Shown: piece by piece, positions 265 to 6,589 of the stretch
Layout of the letters: every line of letters begins with the position of its first letter
Position numbering within the stretch: position 1 is the stretch's first letter
Virus record (IMG/VR): IMGVR_UViG_3300047483_000168
Span: 1-32,992 of that record
DNA: 32,992 nt
Source of the DNA: a virus
Direction: 5' to 3' (one strand)
Made by a program: the position numbers and the translations under genes
The notes under the pieces: model-generated
Database searches by the model: none
What the model was told of the DNA's origin: nothing
Seen by the model: the letters and a program-made list of their open reading frames with translations, nothing else

Positions 265-762
265 ATGGAAGAACAAGAAGAAGTACCAAAGAAGAAGTAC
301 AACATTAATCCTAATAGCTTAAAGAACTTAAAGCCTATTCAACCTGGTGAAACAAGGAATCCTAATGGCAGACCTAAGAACATGTTTAGGCAAGTTATGG
401 AGAGTGTTGATAAGAGTCTTAGGATTCGGATGAGTAAGCAAGATGTTGTTGATGTAGTGGCAATGGTTAATTCAATGAGTGTTGCTGATATTAAGGTGGT
501 AGCTGCTGATTCTAATACTCCTGCATTTATTGCAGTTGTTGCTAATGCCATCTTAGGTGACATTAAGAACGGAGAGATGAAGAATAGCCAGTTCATGATT
601 GAATTTCAGCATGGCAAGGCATCCCAAGCATTACACTTTGAAACTACCGTAAAGGAAGATGTATTAAACCCCAAATTATTAACAGATGAGCAAATCAGAG
701 AACGACTTAGCCAAATTAGAGAGAGAGATATTGTTGAGGGAGATTTCGAGGAGATCACTTAA
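265..762 (+). CDS. DUF5681 protein, probable small terminase subunit
   Basis: The product is 165 aa. Residues about 23-40 carry the PGETRNPNGRPK-type motif of DUF5681, a short domain common in phage proteins encoded just before the large terminase. The rest is helical and charged with no other recognised motif. Small terminase subunits bind the packaging site on phage DNA and regulate the motor; this role is inferred from position and the DUF5681 motif. The start is the first ATG after a long AT-rich leader. The 3' end overlaps the large terminase frame by 77 nt if that gene starts at its first ATG. A TerS-like helical fold is not proven here. Confidence 0.7.
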   Translation: MEEQEEVPKKKYNINPNSLKNLKPIQPGETRNPNGRPKNMFRQVMESVDKSLRIRMSKQDVVDVVAMVNSMSVADIKVVAADSNTPAFIAVVANAILGDIKNGEMKNSQFMIEFQHGKASQALHFETTVKEDVLNPKLLTDEQIRERLSQIRERDIVEGDFEEIT

Positions 763-2068
763 AGACTTTGTTCAGTACATTAAGCCTGACTATGAGATGC
801 AATGGTTTCATCAGGTTATCTCTGAACACTTAGATTTGGTCTATGAAGGTAAGATTAAGAAGCTAATGATATTTGTGCCTCCACAACATGGGAAGTCCGA
901 GTTATCAACAAGAAGTTTTCCTGCTTACCTACTTGGTCGCAATCCTGATTTGAAGTTAGCTTTAGCTTCCTACAATGCTACCTTAGCCGAGCAATTTTCT
1001 ACTGAAATCCAAAGAAGGATGCTAAGTGAGGAATTTAAACTACTTTATCCTGAATCTCGTATTGGTGAGAAGAAGGGTGAGGCAGTAAAGACTGCAGAGT
1101 TTTTCCAAACTGTTAACAGAAGGGGATATTTAAGAGCAGTTGGTAGAGGTGGTTCGTTAACTGGTACGGCAGTTGATATTGGAATCATTGATGACCCCTT
1201 AAAAGACCGACAAGAGGCACAATCAATTATCATTAAGGAACAACTTTGGAATTGGTACACCGATGTGTGGGAAACTCGTTTGCATAACGATTCCGCACAA
1301 GTGCTTATTCAAACAAGGTGGTATGATGATGATTTAGCAGGTAGATTACTTGAAAGGGATGATGACTGGACAATTATCGAGTTTCCTGCTATTCGTGAGG
1401 GTGCAGAGAACACTTATGATAAAAGAAAGGTCGGGGAAGCCTTATGGCCTGAAAAACATTCACTTGATAAATTATTAAAAGTCAAGAAGAATGAGCCATT
1501 TACTTTTGAGTCACTTTATCAGCAAAACCCTAAGCCAAGTGTAGAATCCTTGATTTATCACGATTGGCAACCTTGTGAGTTCTTTCCAAAGGATGCAGAG
1601 GTGGTGTTTAGTGGCCTTGACTTTGGATTCTCTAATGACCCTACTGCACTAGTAAGAATTGCCAAATTGGGAAATAAGTTATACCTTGATGAGGTTATTT
1701 ACGAGAAGGGATTAACTAATGCCGATTTGATTAAGAAAATCAAGATGTATCCAAGTAAACTCGGTGAGATTTACTGCGATAGTGCTGACCCTAAATCAAT
1801 TGAGGAATTAAAGAGAGCCAATCTTCCTGTTAAGAAAGCAGTTAAAGGTAATGACTCTGTTAATGCTGGAATCAGTAAATTACGAGAATACGAAGTGTAT
1901 TACACGAGGCGGTCAAAAAACATTAAGAAAGAGGTAGATAACTACCAATGGATGATGGTCGGGGGTAAAACCATTAACAAACCGATAGATGACTTTAATC
2001 ATGGACTTGACTCGATCAGGTATGCGGTCTACTCGAAGTATTCAAAGAAAAAACTCTTAATTTTTTAA
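686..2068 (+). CDS. terL: Terminase large subunit (packaging ATPase-nuclease)
   Basis: The product is 460 aa, the usual TerL size. It would pump phage DNA into proheads and cut the concatemer. Residues 65-72 (PPQHGKSE) form the Walker A-type loop and 167-170 (IIDD) the Walker B segment of the N-terminal ATPase. The C-terminal RNase H-like nuclease shows its acidic residues in LDFGFSNDPT (D312), YCDSADP (D365) and HGLDSIRYA (D442). The ATG at 686 lies inside the preceding gene. In-frame TTG codons at 731 and 734 are alternatives that would shrink the 77-nt overlap; residue 24 onward already looks like conserved family sequence. The portal gene follows after 3 nt. Confidence 0.95.
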   Translation: MSKSENDLAKLEREILLREISRRSLKDFVQYIKPDYEMQWFHQVISEHLDLVYEGKIKKLMIFVPPQHGKSELSTRSFPAYLLGRNPDLKLALASYNATLAEQFSTEIQRRMLSEEFKLLYPESRIGEKKGEAVKTAEFFQTVNRRGYLRAVGRGGSLTGTAVDIGIIDDPLKDRQEAQSIIIKEQLWNWYTDVWETRLHNDSAQVLIQTRWYDDDLAGRLLERDDDWTIIEFPAIREGAENTYDKRKVGEALWPEKHSLDKLLKVKKNEPFTFESLYQQNPKPSVESLIYHDWQPCEFFPKDAEVVFSGLDFGFSNDPTALVRIAKLGNKLYLDEVIYEKGLTNADLIKKIKMYPSKLGEIYCDSADPKSIEELKRANLPVKKAVKGNDSVNAGISKLREYEVYYTRRSKNIKKEVDNYQWMMVGGKTINKPIDDFNHGLDSIRYAVYSKYSKKKLLIF

Positions 2069-2071
2069 ACA

Positions 2072-3439
2072 ATGGGATTATTCGATTTTTTTACTGGCAA
2101 GAAAGCCATAGATGTGCAAGGTGTCAAACAATGGCAACTATTTGGCGGAGGCCAAACATATTCGTTGTATAGTACTGATTATCGTGATGCGATAAATAAC
2201 GGATACGACAAGAACGTAGATGTGTACGCAATCATTGATGATATTTCTTCTCGTGCAGTAGAAGTTCCTTTAGAACTATACCAAACAAGCAAGATGCAAA
2301 TTAAATCTGCTAATAGAGTCAAGGCTTTACTTACAAGACCTACTGACCGAAGCATGATGGAGGCTAATTCAATTATGAAGAAGTCTATGAAGGAATTAGA
2401 AGAACATCCATTATTGGCTTTACTTAAAAGACCAAATGGCTATCAAACTTCTAAACAGTTTTTTAATGCTTTATTCTCGTATGACCTACTATTAAAAGAT
2501 GTGGGTGTATGGGGCGAAGAAGACCCAATCAAACCAGGAAAGATTGCAAGACTTCACGTTATAGCCCCACACGATTATGATATCATTACTGATGGTTTTA
2601 GAAAGATTGTTAAGTATAAGATTAGGTCTATTAATCAAGAGGTTGATCCTCAATTCTTTTTATCGTTCCGTAGTTTTAATCCCACTTTTGACAACCAAAA
2701 TTCTGTACATCGTGGAGTATCACCTTTAAAGGCAGGTTCTCGTGTTTTGCAGAAAGCTAATGCAGGAGAAGAAGTAGCGATTGAAAACTTTGAAACTCGT
2801 GGTGCAGTAGGATTTGTGTATAAGGATGATATCAACGTAGAAGATTTAGATTCTACTGAAGTGCAGAACTTAGAGGATAGAATGTATGATAAGATTTACA
2901 ATCCATCTGCTAAAGGTCGTGTACAATGGTCTAATGCTAAAGTTGGTTTTACTAAGCTATCAACTACAAACATTGACTTGGATTTAAGAGCAATGAGTAA
3001 GTTATCTACCGAGCAGTTGTGTCGTTTATGGCATTACCCTTATGTGTTGCTAAATGCAGACAACTTAACTGAAAGCAACTTGGCACAATTTATCCGTAGA
3101 ATGATTATTAACTGCGTTGTGCCTATGCAATCTCGTGTATGCGAAGGTTTGCTAGAATGGCTTGCTCCAAGTATGGGTATGAATCCCTCACAATACGTTT
3201 TACGTTTTGATGTGGATGCTTATCCTGAAATGAAGCAGAACTTCTTGGATGCAGCTTCAATTTTAGAGAAATTAGATGGTGTACTTACTCAAGATGAGAA
3301 ACGTGTGTTTATGGACTTTGAGCCTACTAACGATCCAGTAATGCAACAAGTTTATATTCGTTCTAATCAAGTGACTATTGGTAGCCTTAACATTGACCCG
3401 ACAGAGATTGGCTCAATGGTTATGGATGAAGATAATTAA
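2072..3439 (+). CDS. Portal protein, HK97/phage_portal family
   Basis: The product is 455 aa. It would form the dodecameric ring at one capsid vertex through which DNA passes and to which terminase and neck proteins dock. Family signs are the N-terminal stretch leading to VYAIIDDISSRAVEVPLELY (about residues 50-69), the central APHDYDII strand, and the conserved RGVSPLKAGSRVL segment (about 218-230). The C-terminal half is helical, as expected for the stem and wing. It sits 3 nt after terL in the canonical terL-portal-MuF-protease-capsid order. Arg codon CGT is used often, as in the capsid gene. Confidence 0.93.
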   Translation: MGLFDFFTGKKAIDVQGVKQWQLFGGGQTYSLYSTDYRDAINNGYDKNVDVYAIIDDISSRAVEVPLELYQTSKMQIKSANRVKALLTRPTDRSMMEANSIMKKSMKELEEHPLLALLKRPNGYQTSKQFFNALFSYDLLLKDVGVWGEEDPIKPGKIARLHVIAPHDYDIITDGFRKIVKYKIRSINQEVDPQFFLSFRSFNPTFDNQNSVHRGVSPLKAGSRVLQKANAGEEVAIENFETRGAVGFVYKDDINVEDLDSTEVQNLEDRMYDKIYNPSAKGRVQWSNAKVGFTKLSTTNIDLDLRAMSKLSTEQLCRLWHYPYVLLNADNLTESNLAQFIRRMIINCVVPMQSRVCEGLLEWLAPSMGMNPSQYVLRFDVDAYPEMKQNFLDAASILEKLDGVLTQDEKRVFMDFEPTNDPVMQQVYIRSNQVTIGSLNIDPTEIGSMVMDEDN

Positions 3440-3440
3440 C

Positions 3441-3581
3441 ATGGATACTTTATCAATTATAGTAACAACTTTAGCGGTAACAACTTCCTTTTGGTTAGGG
3501 TTCTTTGTTGTCTATCAAGACAATGTTAAGGACAGAGAAAAGAAGAAGATAGAAAAGCTATTCAGAGATAAGAAATGGTAA
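3441..3581 (+). CDS. 46-aa single-pass membrane protein
   Basis: The likely start is the ATG at 3441, right after the portal stop; a longer open frame begins at 3378 but lies inside the portal gene. Residues about 4-25 (IIVTTLAVTTSFWLGFFVVY region) form one hydrophobic segment, followed by a strongly charged tail rich in Lys, Asp and Glu. The stop overlaps the next start by 7 nt. No family is recognised. Its place among head genes is unusual for a membrane protein; a role at the membrane during assembly or entry is only a guess. Confidence 0.6.
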   Translation: MDTLSIIVTTLAVTTSFWLGFFVVYQDNVKDREKKKIEKLFRDKKW

Positions 3582-4312
3582 CAGAAGAAATGTACCGAGT
3601 AGCTTGGCGAAGAAGGCACAATATGAATGAACGTGCTTTCTTTGCCTATCTTCAAACTAAACTCGGAGCAGAAACAAGAGAGTACTTAAAGTCACTTAGT
3701 GGCCGAAACCCACAGACATTCCATATCACTAATCACTTTAACGAGAGATGGTTTATGGAAATACTGAAAGATGCGTATTTAAAGTTCGGAAGCAGACAAA
3801 ATGAGTTTCTTAGCAGATACTCTAAAAAGGATGAAGCAGAAGATTTTACTAACGCATGGATTTTGGCACTTCTTTTGCTTTTTAAGGACATATCGCAGTT
3901 CATAATGATACTTGGTATCATTCGCACAATTAAGACTGATGTACAACGATTTGTGCAAGAGAAAATGCAAGAAGGTGTTGAGGCAGAAGCAATCATTACT
4001 TTGCTTGGTGTTTATTTAGCTTCTAAGAACATTATTAGAAGTCAAACTATTGCTCGTACAGAACTTACAAAGATTATGAATCTTGCAAGTGAAACATGGG
4101 CAGGAATCCAAAACAAACCACTAAAGAAGAAGTGGGTGGTTACATTGGATGGCAAGGAACGTGCATCTCATAATGCAATGGCAAGTTATCCTGCAATAGC
4201 TTTAAACGAAAAGTTTGTTGTGGGTGGTGCTTTAATGGATAGACCTGGTGATGGGTCTGCTCCTGCAAGTGAACTTGTCAACTGTAGGTGTGGTCTGATG
4301 TATGTAGAGTAA
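3575..4312 (+). CDS. Minor head protein, MuF / SPP1 gp7 family
   Basis: The product is 245 aa. The C-terminal region has the MuF-domain signature: IARTELTKIMN (about 161-171), a KKWVVTLDGKERASH segment with the conserved His, a PGDG turn and the terminal NCRCGL motif. SPP1 gp7-type proteins bind the portal inside the capsid and affect head assembly and DNA ejection. The N-terminal half is helical and less conserved, with a hydrophobic patch around residues 94-115. Its order between portal and protease is canonical. A promoter-like site lies just after it. Confidence 0.85.
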   Translation: MVTEEMYRVAWRRRHNMNERAFFAYLQTKLGAETREYLKSLSGRNPQTFHITNHFNERWFMEILKDAYLKFGSRQNEFLSRYSKKDEAEDFTNAWILALLLLFKDISQFIMILGIIRTIKTDVQRFVQEKMQEGVEAEAIITLLGVYLASKNIIRSQTIARTELTKIMNLASETWAGIQNKPLKKKWVVTLDGKERASHNAMASYPAIALNEKFVVGGALMDRPGDGSAPASELVNCRCGLMYVE

Positions 4313-4361: not shown

Positions 4362-5405
4362 ATGAGAGATTATAAAATAAAATCAGATGGTAGTGTACAA
4401 GACGTTGATGTAAAAAAACGTATTGTTACTGGCTACGCATCTAAGTTTGGCAATATTGACCTGCACAACGATATGATCGTACCGGGTGCTTTTAAGAAAA
4501 CCTTAAAGGAGAGGGGTGTAGATGGCAATAACAGTATTTGGTTCTTACACAATCACAAGACAGAAAACCCTTTAGGTAAGCCAAGAGTTCTAAAAGAGGA
4601 TTCTTATGGTCTTTACTTTGAAGCACCTATTGTAGATACTACGATTGGTAGTGATGTGTTAAAGTTGTATGAAGAAGGCTTAATCAATGAGCACTCTATT
4701 GGATTCTCTACTATTAAGGAAAACAAGGTCACTAAGTCTTTTAATGACTATCCTAAGTCTGTATCTGACAATGCAAAGAAAGGTATCAGATTAAATGAGG
4801 AGGGTGGCAATAAGTGTGCTACTGATGTGGGCAAGATTCGTGCTCAACAATTAGCTAACAATGAGAACATTTCTTTAGATGTTGTAAAAAGAATGTATTC
4901 TTATTTGTCAAGAGCAAAAACTTACTATAATCCTGATGATGAAACTGCTTGTGGTACAATCTCATATTTACTATGGGGTGGCTTACCTGCATTGAAGTGG
5001 TCTGAAGATAAGATTAAGGAAGTAGAAGGTCAAAAATCTGCGAATGGTACTAAAAGTTACTATGAGATACAAGAGGTAAAATTATTCGAATTTAGTAGTG
5101 TTCTTTGGGGTGCAAATCCTGACACTCCTTTCTTAGGACTTAAAAGTTTGGATAATTCACAACTTGTAGATAGATTTGATAAACTTTATAAGCAATTAAA
5201 AGGGGGTACAGTTTCTGATGAAACAATGCAACTTCTCGAGATTGAATATAATTTCATCAAAACGCAAATTGCCCAGTTAATCAATGAAGATGAGGAAGTC
5301 GTAGGAGATGACACTTCGGAGGTTATTGATGCAATTGATGAGCAGTTGTTTATTGAGGAACAGAAAAAGTATTTTATAAATCAATTAAAAAACTCGTTTA
5401 AATAA
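4362..5405 (+). CDS. HK97-family prohead protease with inserted domain
   Basis: The product is 347 aa, longer than the usual 180-250. It would mature the capsid by cutting scaffold regions. The N-terminal fold is typical: VTGYASKFGNIDLHND then IVPGAFKKTL, catalytic His65 in LHNHKTENP and catalytic Ser112 in NEHSIGFS. After this the expected next strand (EVKLFEFSSVLWGANPDTP, residues 238-256) is delayed by an insertion at about 128-222. The insertion carries AKKGIRLNE, CATDVGKIRAQQLA, RMYSYLSRAKTYY and CGTISYLLWGG, all well-formed and with Cys152 and Cys197. A similar block occurs in other Bacteroidota phage head proteins as far as I recall. The C-terminal 90 residues are acidic and helical and may act as scaffold. 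The stop overlaps the capsid start by 1 nt. Confidence 0.9.
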   Translation: MRDYKIKSDGSVQDVDVKKRIVTGYASKFGNIDLHNDMIVPGAFKKTLKERGVDGNNSIWFLHNHKTENPLGKPRVLKEDSYGLYFEAPIVDTTIGSDVLKLYEEGLINEHSIGFSTIKENKVTKSFNDYPKSVSDNAKKGIRLNEEGGNKCATDVGKIRAQQLANNENISLDVVKRMYSYLSRAKTYYNPDDETACGTISYLLWGGLPALKWSEDKIKEVEGQKSANGTKSYYEIQEVKLFEFSSVLWGANPDTPFLGLKSLDNSQLVDRFDKLYKQLKGGTVSDETMQLLEIEYNFIKTQIAQLINEDEEVVGDDTSEVIDAIDEQLFIEEQKKYFINQLKNSFK

Positions 5406-6589
5406 TGGAGGATATTAAAAAAATCGTTGAGGAGGTAAAATCTGACATCAACGCAATGATTGAAAAAGGTGTTGGTAAGGAAATGGAAGGTTTAAACCTT
5501 AAAGACCTTATCTCTCAAACACAAAATGCAGGTGAGAAATTAGCTTCTTTAGAGGAGAAAATGGGAACAGTAGAGAAGTCTGTATCTGACTTTATCTTAG
5601 ACCAAAAATCTGTAGGTGCTCCTGCACAAAGAGAAGATTTCGTAGCTAAGGCTTTCGAAGCTAACGCAGGTAAATTAAAGTCTTTGATTTCTTCTCGTGG
5701 AGAAGCAGTTGGAATGAACTTCAAGGCAGTAGGTGATATGAACTTGACTGCTAACATCGGTTCAGGTTGGGCTTCATCTATCGCAGGTTTGTCTAACACA
5801 ATCTTGACTGATCCTTTCCGTCAAGTACACTTGCGTGATTTGTTACGTTCTTCTACTATCGAGCAGAATGGTGTATTCAAATTCGCTAAGAAAACAGGTG
5901 GTGAAGGTGCTCCTGCAGTTCAAACTGAAGGTGCTTCTAAGGCTCAAGTGGATTACGATTTCACTATCTCTGAAGTAACTCCTAAGACTATCGCTGCATA
6001 TAGCAAGATTTCTAAGCAAATGTTATCTCGTTTGACTTGGTTACAATCTTTCGTATCTACTCAAATGGTTAACGATTTGTTAAACGTTGAAGATACATTA
6101 TTGTATGACTACGCAGGAACAGGTGCTTTCGCAGGTTTATATGAGTCGGCTTCTACTTACGTTCCTTCAGGAACTGTAGTTACTGCTTCTAACCGTTGGG
6201 ACAAACTTGCTAACGCAATTGCTCAATTGAAGGCTTTACGTTTTGCTCCTTCTGCTATCTTGGTTAACCCAATTGATGAGATGGAATTGTTAATCAACAA
6301 AGAATCAGGTGCAGGTTATTCTCACCCATCATTGTTGACTGGACAACGTATTTCAATTGCAGGTGTACCAGTTATCGCAACTGACATCGTAACTGCTAAT
6401 ACATTCCACATCGGTGATTTCAACAAGGCTGCTGAATTGTTATTCGAAGATAACATCATGACTGAATTTGCTTACGAAGATGGTGATAACTTCACTAAGA
6501 ACTTGGTAACTGTTCGTGTTGAGGAAAGCATTGCATTGCCAATCTACTTCGCAAACGCTATGTTGAAAGGTTCTTTCGCAACGGCTTAA
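5405..6589 (+). CDS. Major capsid protein, HK97 fold
   Basis: The product is 394 aa. Residues 1-75 are coiled-coil-like and charged, resembling the delta scaffold domain removed by the prohead protease. From about residue 105 the sequence has the HK97 capsid pattern: SGWASSIAGLSNTI, DPFRQVHLRDLLRSSTI, the E-loop region rich in Gly and Ala, then VTPKTIAAYSKISKQML and the helical P domain. Fusion or direct coupling to the protease gene (TAATG overlap) is canonical. Codon use differs from many neighbours: Arg is largely CGT rather than AGA, with many GGT, TCT and GCA codons, as expected for a very highly expressed gene. An intrinsic terminator follows. Confidence 0.95.
   Translation: MEDIKKIVEEVKSDINAMIEKGVGKEMEGLNLKDLISQTQNAGEKLASLEEKMGTVEKSVSDFILDQKSVGAPAQREDFVAKAFEANAGKLKSLISSRGEAVGMNFKAVGDMNLTANIGSGWASSIAGLSNTILTDPFRQVHLRDLLRSSTIEQNGVFKFAKKTGGEGAPAVQTEGASKAQVDYDFTISEVTPKTIAAYSKISKQMLSRLTWLQSFVSTQMVNDLLNVEDTLLYDYAGTGAFAGLYESASTYVPSGTVVTASNRWDKLANAIAQLKALRFAPSAILVNPIDEMELLINKESGAGYSHPSLLTGQRISIAGVPVIATDIVTANTFHIGDFNKAAELLFEDNIMTEFAYEDGDNFTKNLVTVRVEESIALPIYFANAMLKGSFATA

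Follow-up and report, generated by a model that had tools for sequence, protein, structure and literature searches.

The head proteins of tailed viruses are usually viewed as a tight, co-evolved set. The locus described here raises the question of whether a segment of about one hundred residues within one such protein, a prohead protease, belongs to that protease or is a separate module placed inside it, and, in the latter case, what the module might contribute to the virus. The window (the whole stretch of DNA that was analysed, a virus record of 32,992 bases) carries in its left part a standard head operon, with the connectors 3' of the capsid gene (Table 1).

Table 1. Positions in the window of the head genes, of selected protease residues and strands, and of the inserted domain with its predicted helices
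Feature	Position	Strand	Basis or remarks
Terminase large subunit	686-2068	+	phrog_38, E 2e-71
Portal protein	2072-3439	+	phrog_2662, E 1e-29
MuF/gp7-like head morphogenesis protein	3575-4312	+	phrog_2468, E 1.5e-22
S78/HK97-type prohead (head maturation) protease, 347 aa, with inserted domain	4362-5405	+	PF04586, TIGR01543, phrog_80
Major capsid protein	5405-6589	+	phrog_10, E 2.5e-30
Protease His63-Asn-His65, one His likely catalytic	4548-4556	+	both His invariant with and without insert
Protease Ser112, likely catalytic	4695-4697	+	invariant
Protease strand running into insert	4698-4727	+	DSSP on low-confidence full-length model; kept in uninserted relatives
Inserted five-helix domain, residues 128-225	4743-5036	+	no Pfam/NCBIfam family; phrog_2859; AF2 pLDDT 96.1
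Profile core of inserted domain, residues 129-222	4746-5027	+	
Domain helix 1	4755-4802	+	residues 5-20 of P0001, DSSP on AF2 model
Cys152	4815-4817	+	co-occurs with Cys197
Domain helix 2, conserved G30, R33	4824-4856	+	residues 28-38 of P0001, AF2 model
Domain helix 3, conserved T47, R50, R57	4875-4925	+	residues 45-61 of P0001, AF2 model
Cys197	4950-4952	+	co-occurs with Cys152
Domain helix 4, runs into WGG motif	4950-4973	+	residues 70-77 of P0001, AF2 model
Domain helix 5, conserved W86	4980-5030	+	residues 80-96 of P0001, AF2 model
Protease strand after insert	5061-5090	+	DSSP on low-confidence full-length model; alignment with uninserted relatives
Protease Glu243, likely third catalytic residue, C-terminal to insert	5088-5090	+	invariant

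The protease and the segment within it

The reading frame at 4362-5405 is, judged by its profile matches, an S78/HK97 prohead protease: it scores 86.1 bits against Peptidase_S78 (PF04586; cut-off 21) and 80.2 bits against the HK97 proheadase equivalog TIGR01543 (cut-off 59), and it matches phrog_80 with E 1e-32. The frame itself, the motifs quoted in the initial annotation and the positions given there for Ser112, Cys152 and Cys197 are all present as described. The best stretches of the PF04586 and TIGR01543 matches both stop at residue 121, while His63, His65, Ser112 and Glu243 are invariant across 16 relatives that include inserted and uninserted forms. By the pattern of the S78 family, Ser112 and one of His63 and His65 are likely to be catalytic, and Glu243 is presumably the third catalytic residue, by analogy with the His-Ser-Glu triad of HK97; if this assignment is right, the catalytic module surrounds the insert, which is placed at the tip of a hairpin.

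A scan with the protease N-terminus yielded 46 loci. The insert is absent from 22 of 26 aligned close relatives. Most of the aligned relatives are 240-243 residues long, with a loop of about 10 residues joining the Ser112 strand to the 'YYEIQEVKLYEFSSVLWAANPDTP' strand, such that 'KENKVT...GTKSYYEIQEVKLFEFSSV' of the window protease corresponds to 'KEDKVEPKNGIPYYEIQEVKLYEFSSV' in relatives without the insert; the additional residues, about 102 in number, are confined to the window protease and its nearest group, whose proteins are 347-348 residues long. Inserted and uninserted proteases share 64-69% identity overall and 70-79% over residues 1-123, and both forms are found in collinear head operons. 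Residues 128-225 are thus a foreign domain located between Ser112 and Glu243 of the protease. The inserted S78 clade has a single origin in the tree (support 100/89).

Two simpler accounts of the segment were considered and ruled out. It is not an integral part of the S78 fold, since 22 close relatives lack it, in keeping with the expectation of the initial annotation that the region would not be common to all S78 proteases. Nor is it an assembly artefact or chimera, since the same insert occurs on other contigs, in proteases 83-89% identical to that of the window. An identical copy also occurs in one further locus (L001).

No second copy of the domain was found in 15 contigs that carry an uninserted protease, and although these contigs may be incomplete, the result indicates that heads of that type can do without the domain. 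In a protease related to that of the window (L018, 45% identity over its N-terminal part), the core is uninterrupted and the domain is at the C-terminus; here the partner protein is the same as in the window and the joint is different. This arrangement bears on the possibility that the insert regulates the protease in cis, delaying or triggering activity from its position between Ser112 and Glu243. The location within the catalytic module is what such a role would call for, but the C-terminal placement in L018 does not suit it, and many carriers of the domain are not proteases, which weakens a regulatory role to the point of making it improbable.

Fold and conservation of the domain

When modelled alone, using an alignment of the window domain and 61 relatives (62 sequences), the segment is predicted by AF2 to form five helices with pLDDT 96.1 and pTM 0.87, which agrees with the earlier view of it as a discrete folded domain. 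Modelling of the whole protein places the helices (pLDDT about 80-93) between strands 113-122 and 234-243, so that the domain does leave the protease from a single loop as had been proposed; the protease itself is modelled poorly (mean pLDDT 55, from a 16-row alignment), and the presence/absence alignment is therefore the stronger evidence for insertion.

The initial annotation had relied on dense motifs and on two cysteines as signs of a folded domain. The motifs are conserved throughout the family (A11, T27, G30, R33, S44, R50, R57, G71, W78-G79-G80 and W86 in P0001 numbering), but the cysteines are not, although they are strictly paired: among 357 domain sequences both are present in 183, neither in 174 and a single one in none. 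This co-occurrence fits residues in contact, possibly through a disulfide or a shared ligand, but the cysteine carriers form one side of the tree, and one event altering both positions could account for these counts. The dN/dS of the domain is about 0.06-0.16, with dS near saturation, which shows that it is under purifying selection.

No Pfam or NCBIfam family reaches its curated cut-off for residues 128-225. The sole library match of the window domain is phrog_2859 (E 8.9e-8), which is also matched by 22 of the 22 domain members tested, and the open-access literature yielded no paper on PHROG 2859, on DUF2945 in phages or on the insert. Solved relatives were found neither by sequence nor by a Foldseek search of the PDB (best E 1.6); the best VIA-align result (Z 5.1, a copper storage protein, 3.6 A over 85 residues) is at a level common among helical bundles, and a failed fold search of the PDB does not in itself establish a new fold. 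Relations to DUF357, DUF5014 and HTH_Tnp_Tc5 (E 0.04-0.2) were not accepted, and NCBIfam EtFlavAlphaProt matches in three members were taken as spurious. The PADLOC profile for Csm2 weakly matches 7 of the 62 domain sequences (best E 5e-4), an unconfirmed resemblance on which no weight is placed; Csm2 sequences were not found in the 150 genomes or 14 controls scanned. Chance similarity as the source of the family is ruled out by the best tblastn match to phage records (E 2e-10), by the uniform phrog_2859 matches and by the matches among predicted viral structures described below.

Carriers in viruses and mobility

A tblastn search of 50,697 phage records found the domain in 85-91, a range whose upper end includes a few matches with E >1. 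The domain is part of a prohead protease in the haloarchaeal virus HGTV-1, stands between portal and MuF in the haloarchaeal viruses HRTV-28 and HRTV-4, lies at the N-terminus of the capsid gene region in Roseobacter and Synechococcus phages and forms a solo gene in PaBG and Salicola phage SCTP-2; many Vibrio phages, an actinobacterial phage and others carry it as well. The statement in the initial annotation that similar blocks occur in Bacteroidota phages was accordingly too narrow, as the family extends to haloarchaeal, Vibrio, Roseobacter, cyanobacterial and actinobacterial phages and to bacterial chromosomes. The family-wide profile was too diverse for scanning the IMG/VR collection, which was instead searched with three sub-alignments, giving at least 597, at least 597 and 309 relatives, in numbers that reflect the preference of pattern-based scans for close relatives and the bias of such collections towards environmental virus contigs. 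Among predicted viral proteins (BFVD) there are 44 structure matches at E <= 0.001, and the named ones include portal, XkdF, prohead protease, HAD-like, Dps, ParB/sulfiredoxin and Hva1 TUDOR proteins.

Pfam analysis of 20 representatives detected fusions to S78, XkdF (S78_2), ClpP, Phage_capsid, two Phage_portal families, DUF5824 and Hva1_TUDOR. Sorting 358 loci with local profiles, and listing partners in N- to C-terminal order, gives 57 domain-XkdF, 56 XkdF-domain, 50 domain-S78-capsid, 28 portal-domain, 21 domain-S78, 2 domain-ClpP and 1 domain-capsid arrangements, along with 11 S78 proteins in which the domain is inserted or C-terminal, 74 solo genes and 58 other fusions. The domain can therefore be N-terminal, C-terminal or inserted, and the other gene contexts that the initial annotation had anticipated are found in portal, capsid, XkdF and ClpP fusions and in solo genes. 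On a tree of 121 domain tips the label of the host protein changes about 60 times, compared with a minimum of 10 and an average of 79 for shuffled labels, a count that is approximate owing to few columns, many open forks and some labels from cut reading frames (DOM-S78 as opposed to DOM-S78-capsid). Host proteins have thus been exchanged repeatedly, though their labels are not random. Residues 128-225 are shown by these results to belong to an unnamed, autonomous and mobile five-helix domain family, whose members act like interchangeable add-ons to phage head proteins. The idea of a mobile module therefore held; its proposed tie to head assembly is mostly but not always found, given the PaBG copy beside topoisomerase genes and the copies in bacterial chromosomes.

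If a domain moves between proteins and is dispensable in relatives, then it might be merely a neutral or selfish passenger without function. This is very improbable for the present family, because the same core is strongly conserved across bacterial and archaeal viruses, dN/dS is low and, in chromosomes, the pairing of the domain gene with a particular neighbour is conserved (see below).

Several features of individual loci may be recorded here. In a 484-kb uncultured phage (LR756508; L040:3956-5734) the domain is split by an intein with a LAGLIDADG endonuclease (Pfam E 9e-14 and 8e-19), the intein site being between GYMAW and CLWGG, the most conserved motif of the domain. A small, weakly DUF5824-like module (motif AEQWAYARVNSFL) adjoins the domain in L011, L034 and L114; this arrangement is seen in proteases of the XkdF type and in Roseobacter phage genes that bear a capsid-protein annotation. 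A HAD-like segment (KISFDYDGTLS) is joined to the domain in Bacteroidota-type phages (L009:3560-4297; BFVD A0A6J5N6K8). In phage records H39-H45, H102 and H112, genes that contain the domain have the public names DNA methyltransferase, ParB, DUF2945 or major capsid protein, which are probably annotation errors.

Within the window, the head genes differ in their nearest relatives. The portal is 85% identical to that of an uninserted phage (L380) and 71-73% identical to those of inserted phages, and the capsid protein is 84% identical to that of an uninserted phage (L402) and 68-75% identical to those of inserted phages, whereas the protease shares 84-89% identity with those of inserted phages. 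The insert-bearing protease gene has therefore moved between head operons separately from the capsid gene. This disparity, which comes from comparison of the region 4362-6589 with L363-L403, implies that head genes recombine gene by gene in this phage group.

These relationships are relevant to a docking or recruitment function, in which the domain would bind a head component (the capsid delta-region, the scaffold or the portal) and bring its carrier into the procapsid. Almost all carriers are procapsid components, as docking would predict, and in Vibrio phage 1.123.O a solo domain gene is located between head morphogenesis and scaffold-like genes. Since the window portal and capsid are closer to those of uninserted phages, however, the inserted protease evidently works with the capsids of uninserted lineages, and this independence of protease and capsid genes weakens the case for docking; relatives without the domain need no replacement for it, and the chromosomal solo copies have no capsid to which a carrier could be docked. 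A docking role is possible but doubtful.

Cellular copies and possible function

A scan of GTDB contigs gave 342 relatives, and the best 80 of the 342 are mostly chromosomal solo genes of 100-130 residues from Rhizobiaceae and other Alphaproteobacteria, Verrucomicrobiota and Patescibacteria. The cellular solo genes and the PaBG gene form one clade (100/98). Their occurrence is sporadic, with the solo gene present in 10 of 81 genomes sampled from the family of Neorhizobium and in the seed genome only in samples of 142 genomes at the class level and 145 at the phylum level, and plasmids very rarely carry the gene (4 of 72,556 records). An in-frame TAG in two rhizobial copies was considered as a sign of pseudogenes and rejected, these being normal stops. 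On three patescibacterial contigs (L351, L353 and L359) the solo domain gene is directly followed by a gene for a small membrane protein which is TspO-like by eye (e.g. 'WYALLQKPPFAPPSWIFGPVW').

A gene encoding Hva1_TUDOR adjoins 44 of 59 cellular solo domain genes, usually with a 4-base overlap, although many of these loci are related, so the 44 are not independent events; Pfam confirmed the partner in all five cases checked. The Hva1_TUDOR gene precedes the domain gene in Rhizobium and Henriciella and follows it in Verrucomicrobiota, which implies that the adjacency has been kept while the order has not. There are 25 reading frames, from viruses and MAGs, that contain both the domain and Hva1_TUDOR; the two share one frame in L417, and L281 and L296 encode a domain-Tudor-S78-capsid polyprotein. 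Further loci with Hva1_TUDOR beside or fused to the domain are L305, L308, L312, L342 and L358. The two look like a functional pair. The pairing is not obligatory, since Hva1_TUDOR is absent from the window and was found at only 1 of 100 loci in the Bacteroidota-type group. The binding partners of Tudor folds are often proteins or ligands and not DNA. Fungal Hva1 has been linked to NADPH (PMC5008624).

Solo copies of the domain are basic, with a median pI of 9.9 in genomes and 10.4 in phages; the window copy, with a net charge of +1 and a pI of 7.9, is close to neutral, and those of haloviruses are acidic, as halophile proteins generally are. The solo gene of PaBG directly precedes topoisomerase II genes and is annotated as DNA-binding, a label which is an annotator's guess; no DNA-binding profile matched the domain. 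What the fusion partners have in common is that they are part of the procapsid or lie inside it, and this speaks for action in the capsid lumen or on packaged DNA; the basic solo copies, the topoisomerase II neighbour and the Tudor-fold partner together place a nucleic-acid or nucleoprotein role first. The charge of the window and haloviral copies, the other ligands of Tudor folds, the missing DNA-binding profile match and the distance from any solved fold count against such a role. The best explanation, to which a probability of roughly 40% may be assigned, is that the domain would be a nucleic-acid or nucleoprotein binding module taken into the procapsid. In the window it was inserted once at the protease hairpin tip, and the protease core does not depend on it. 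According to this proposal, tethering to a carrier (protease, portal, capsid precursor or MuF) would bring it into the procapsid interior, where it may act, or it may act on incoming DNA; and bacteria and some jumbo phages would use it as a free, small basic protein.

The domain could instead be a cargo protein, i.e. a host-takeover or anti-defence effector that is packaged by fusion to a head protein, freed by proteolysis and injected, a route that has been proposed for polyvalent and MuF-fused effectors. The placement of the domain between portal and MuF in HRTV-4 and HRTV-28, its occurrence beside other small modules (Hva1_TUDOR and DUF5824) and the established theme of effector domains joined to MuF and portal proteins (PMC5512222, a text search of which gave no passage on this domain) are in line with such a role. 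The conserved residues do not look catalytic, however, the matches to defence systems are weak and unconfirmed, and protease carriers do not normally remain in the mature head, being destroyed or lost, so that an effector role appears unlikely.

A broader proposal can be built on the binding module and its chromosomal partner: the domain and Hva1_TUDOR might constitute a two-part nucleoid- or DNA-associated system of bacteria and tailed viruses that has been grafted repeatedly onto head-assembly carriers, the insert in the window being a minimal, one-part form set within the catalytic module of the maturation protease. This remains speculative, and the odds are against it. Whatever its function proves to be, one small domain has been shifted, in bacterial and archaeal viruses alike, among proteases, portals and capsid proteins; it offers a small soluble target whose function could be found in an ordinary bacterium, using the rhizobial gene pair, before the result is applied to phage heads, and annotators gain a domain to name.

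Comparison with known systems places the window protein and its domain as follows. The core motifs and likely catalytic residues of the Peptidase_S78/HK97 gp4-type protease are conserved in the window protein, which differs from its nearest relatives in that family by its enlarged single loop. PHROG 2859, of which profile positions 157-265 of 740 match the domain, is a whole-protein family of 740 columns without a function, and leaves both the domain and its mobility undefined. The fusion to portal or MuF of polyvalent/MuF effectors is matched in the relatives HRTV-4 and HRTV-28 but not in the window, and the domain family differs from these effectors in having no enzymatic signature and in having carriers that include the protease and the capsid precursor. 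Hva1_TUDOR (PF11160, formerly DUF2945) resembles the domain in being solo in bacteria and fused in phage head polyproteins, but it is a beta-barrel of a separate family, and hence a partner rather than a homologue. A parallel in behaviour is provided by mobile Ig-like domains, which are small and autonomous and are appended to or inserted in many unrelated virion proteins, as the present domain is; the Ig-like domains are beta-sandwiches of surface proteins, however, whereas this domain is all-helical in the AF2 model, belongs to a family carried mostly by inner assembly proteins and is paired with a cellular Tudor gene.
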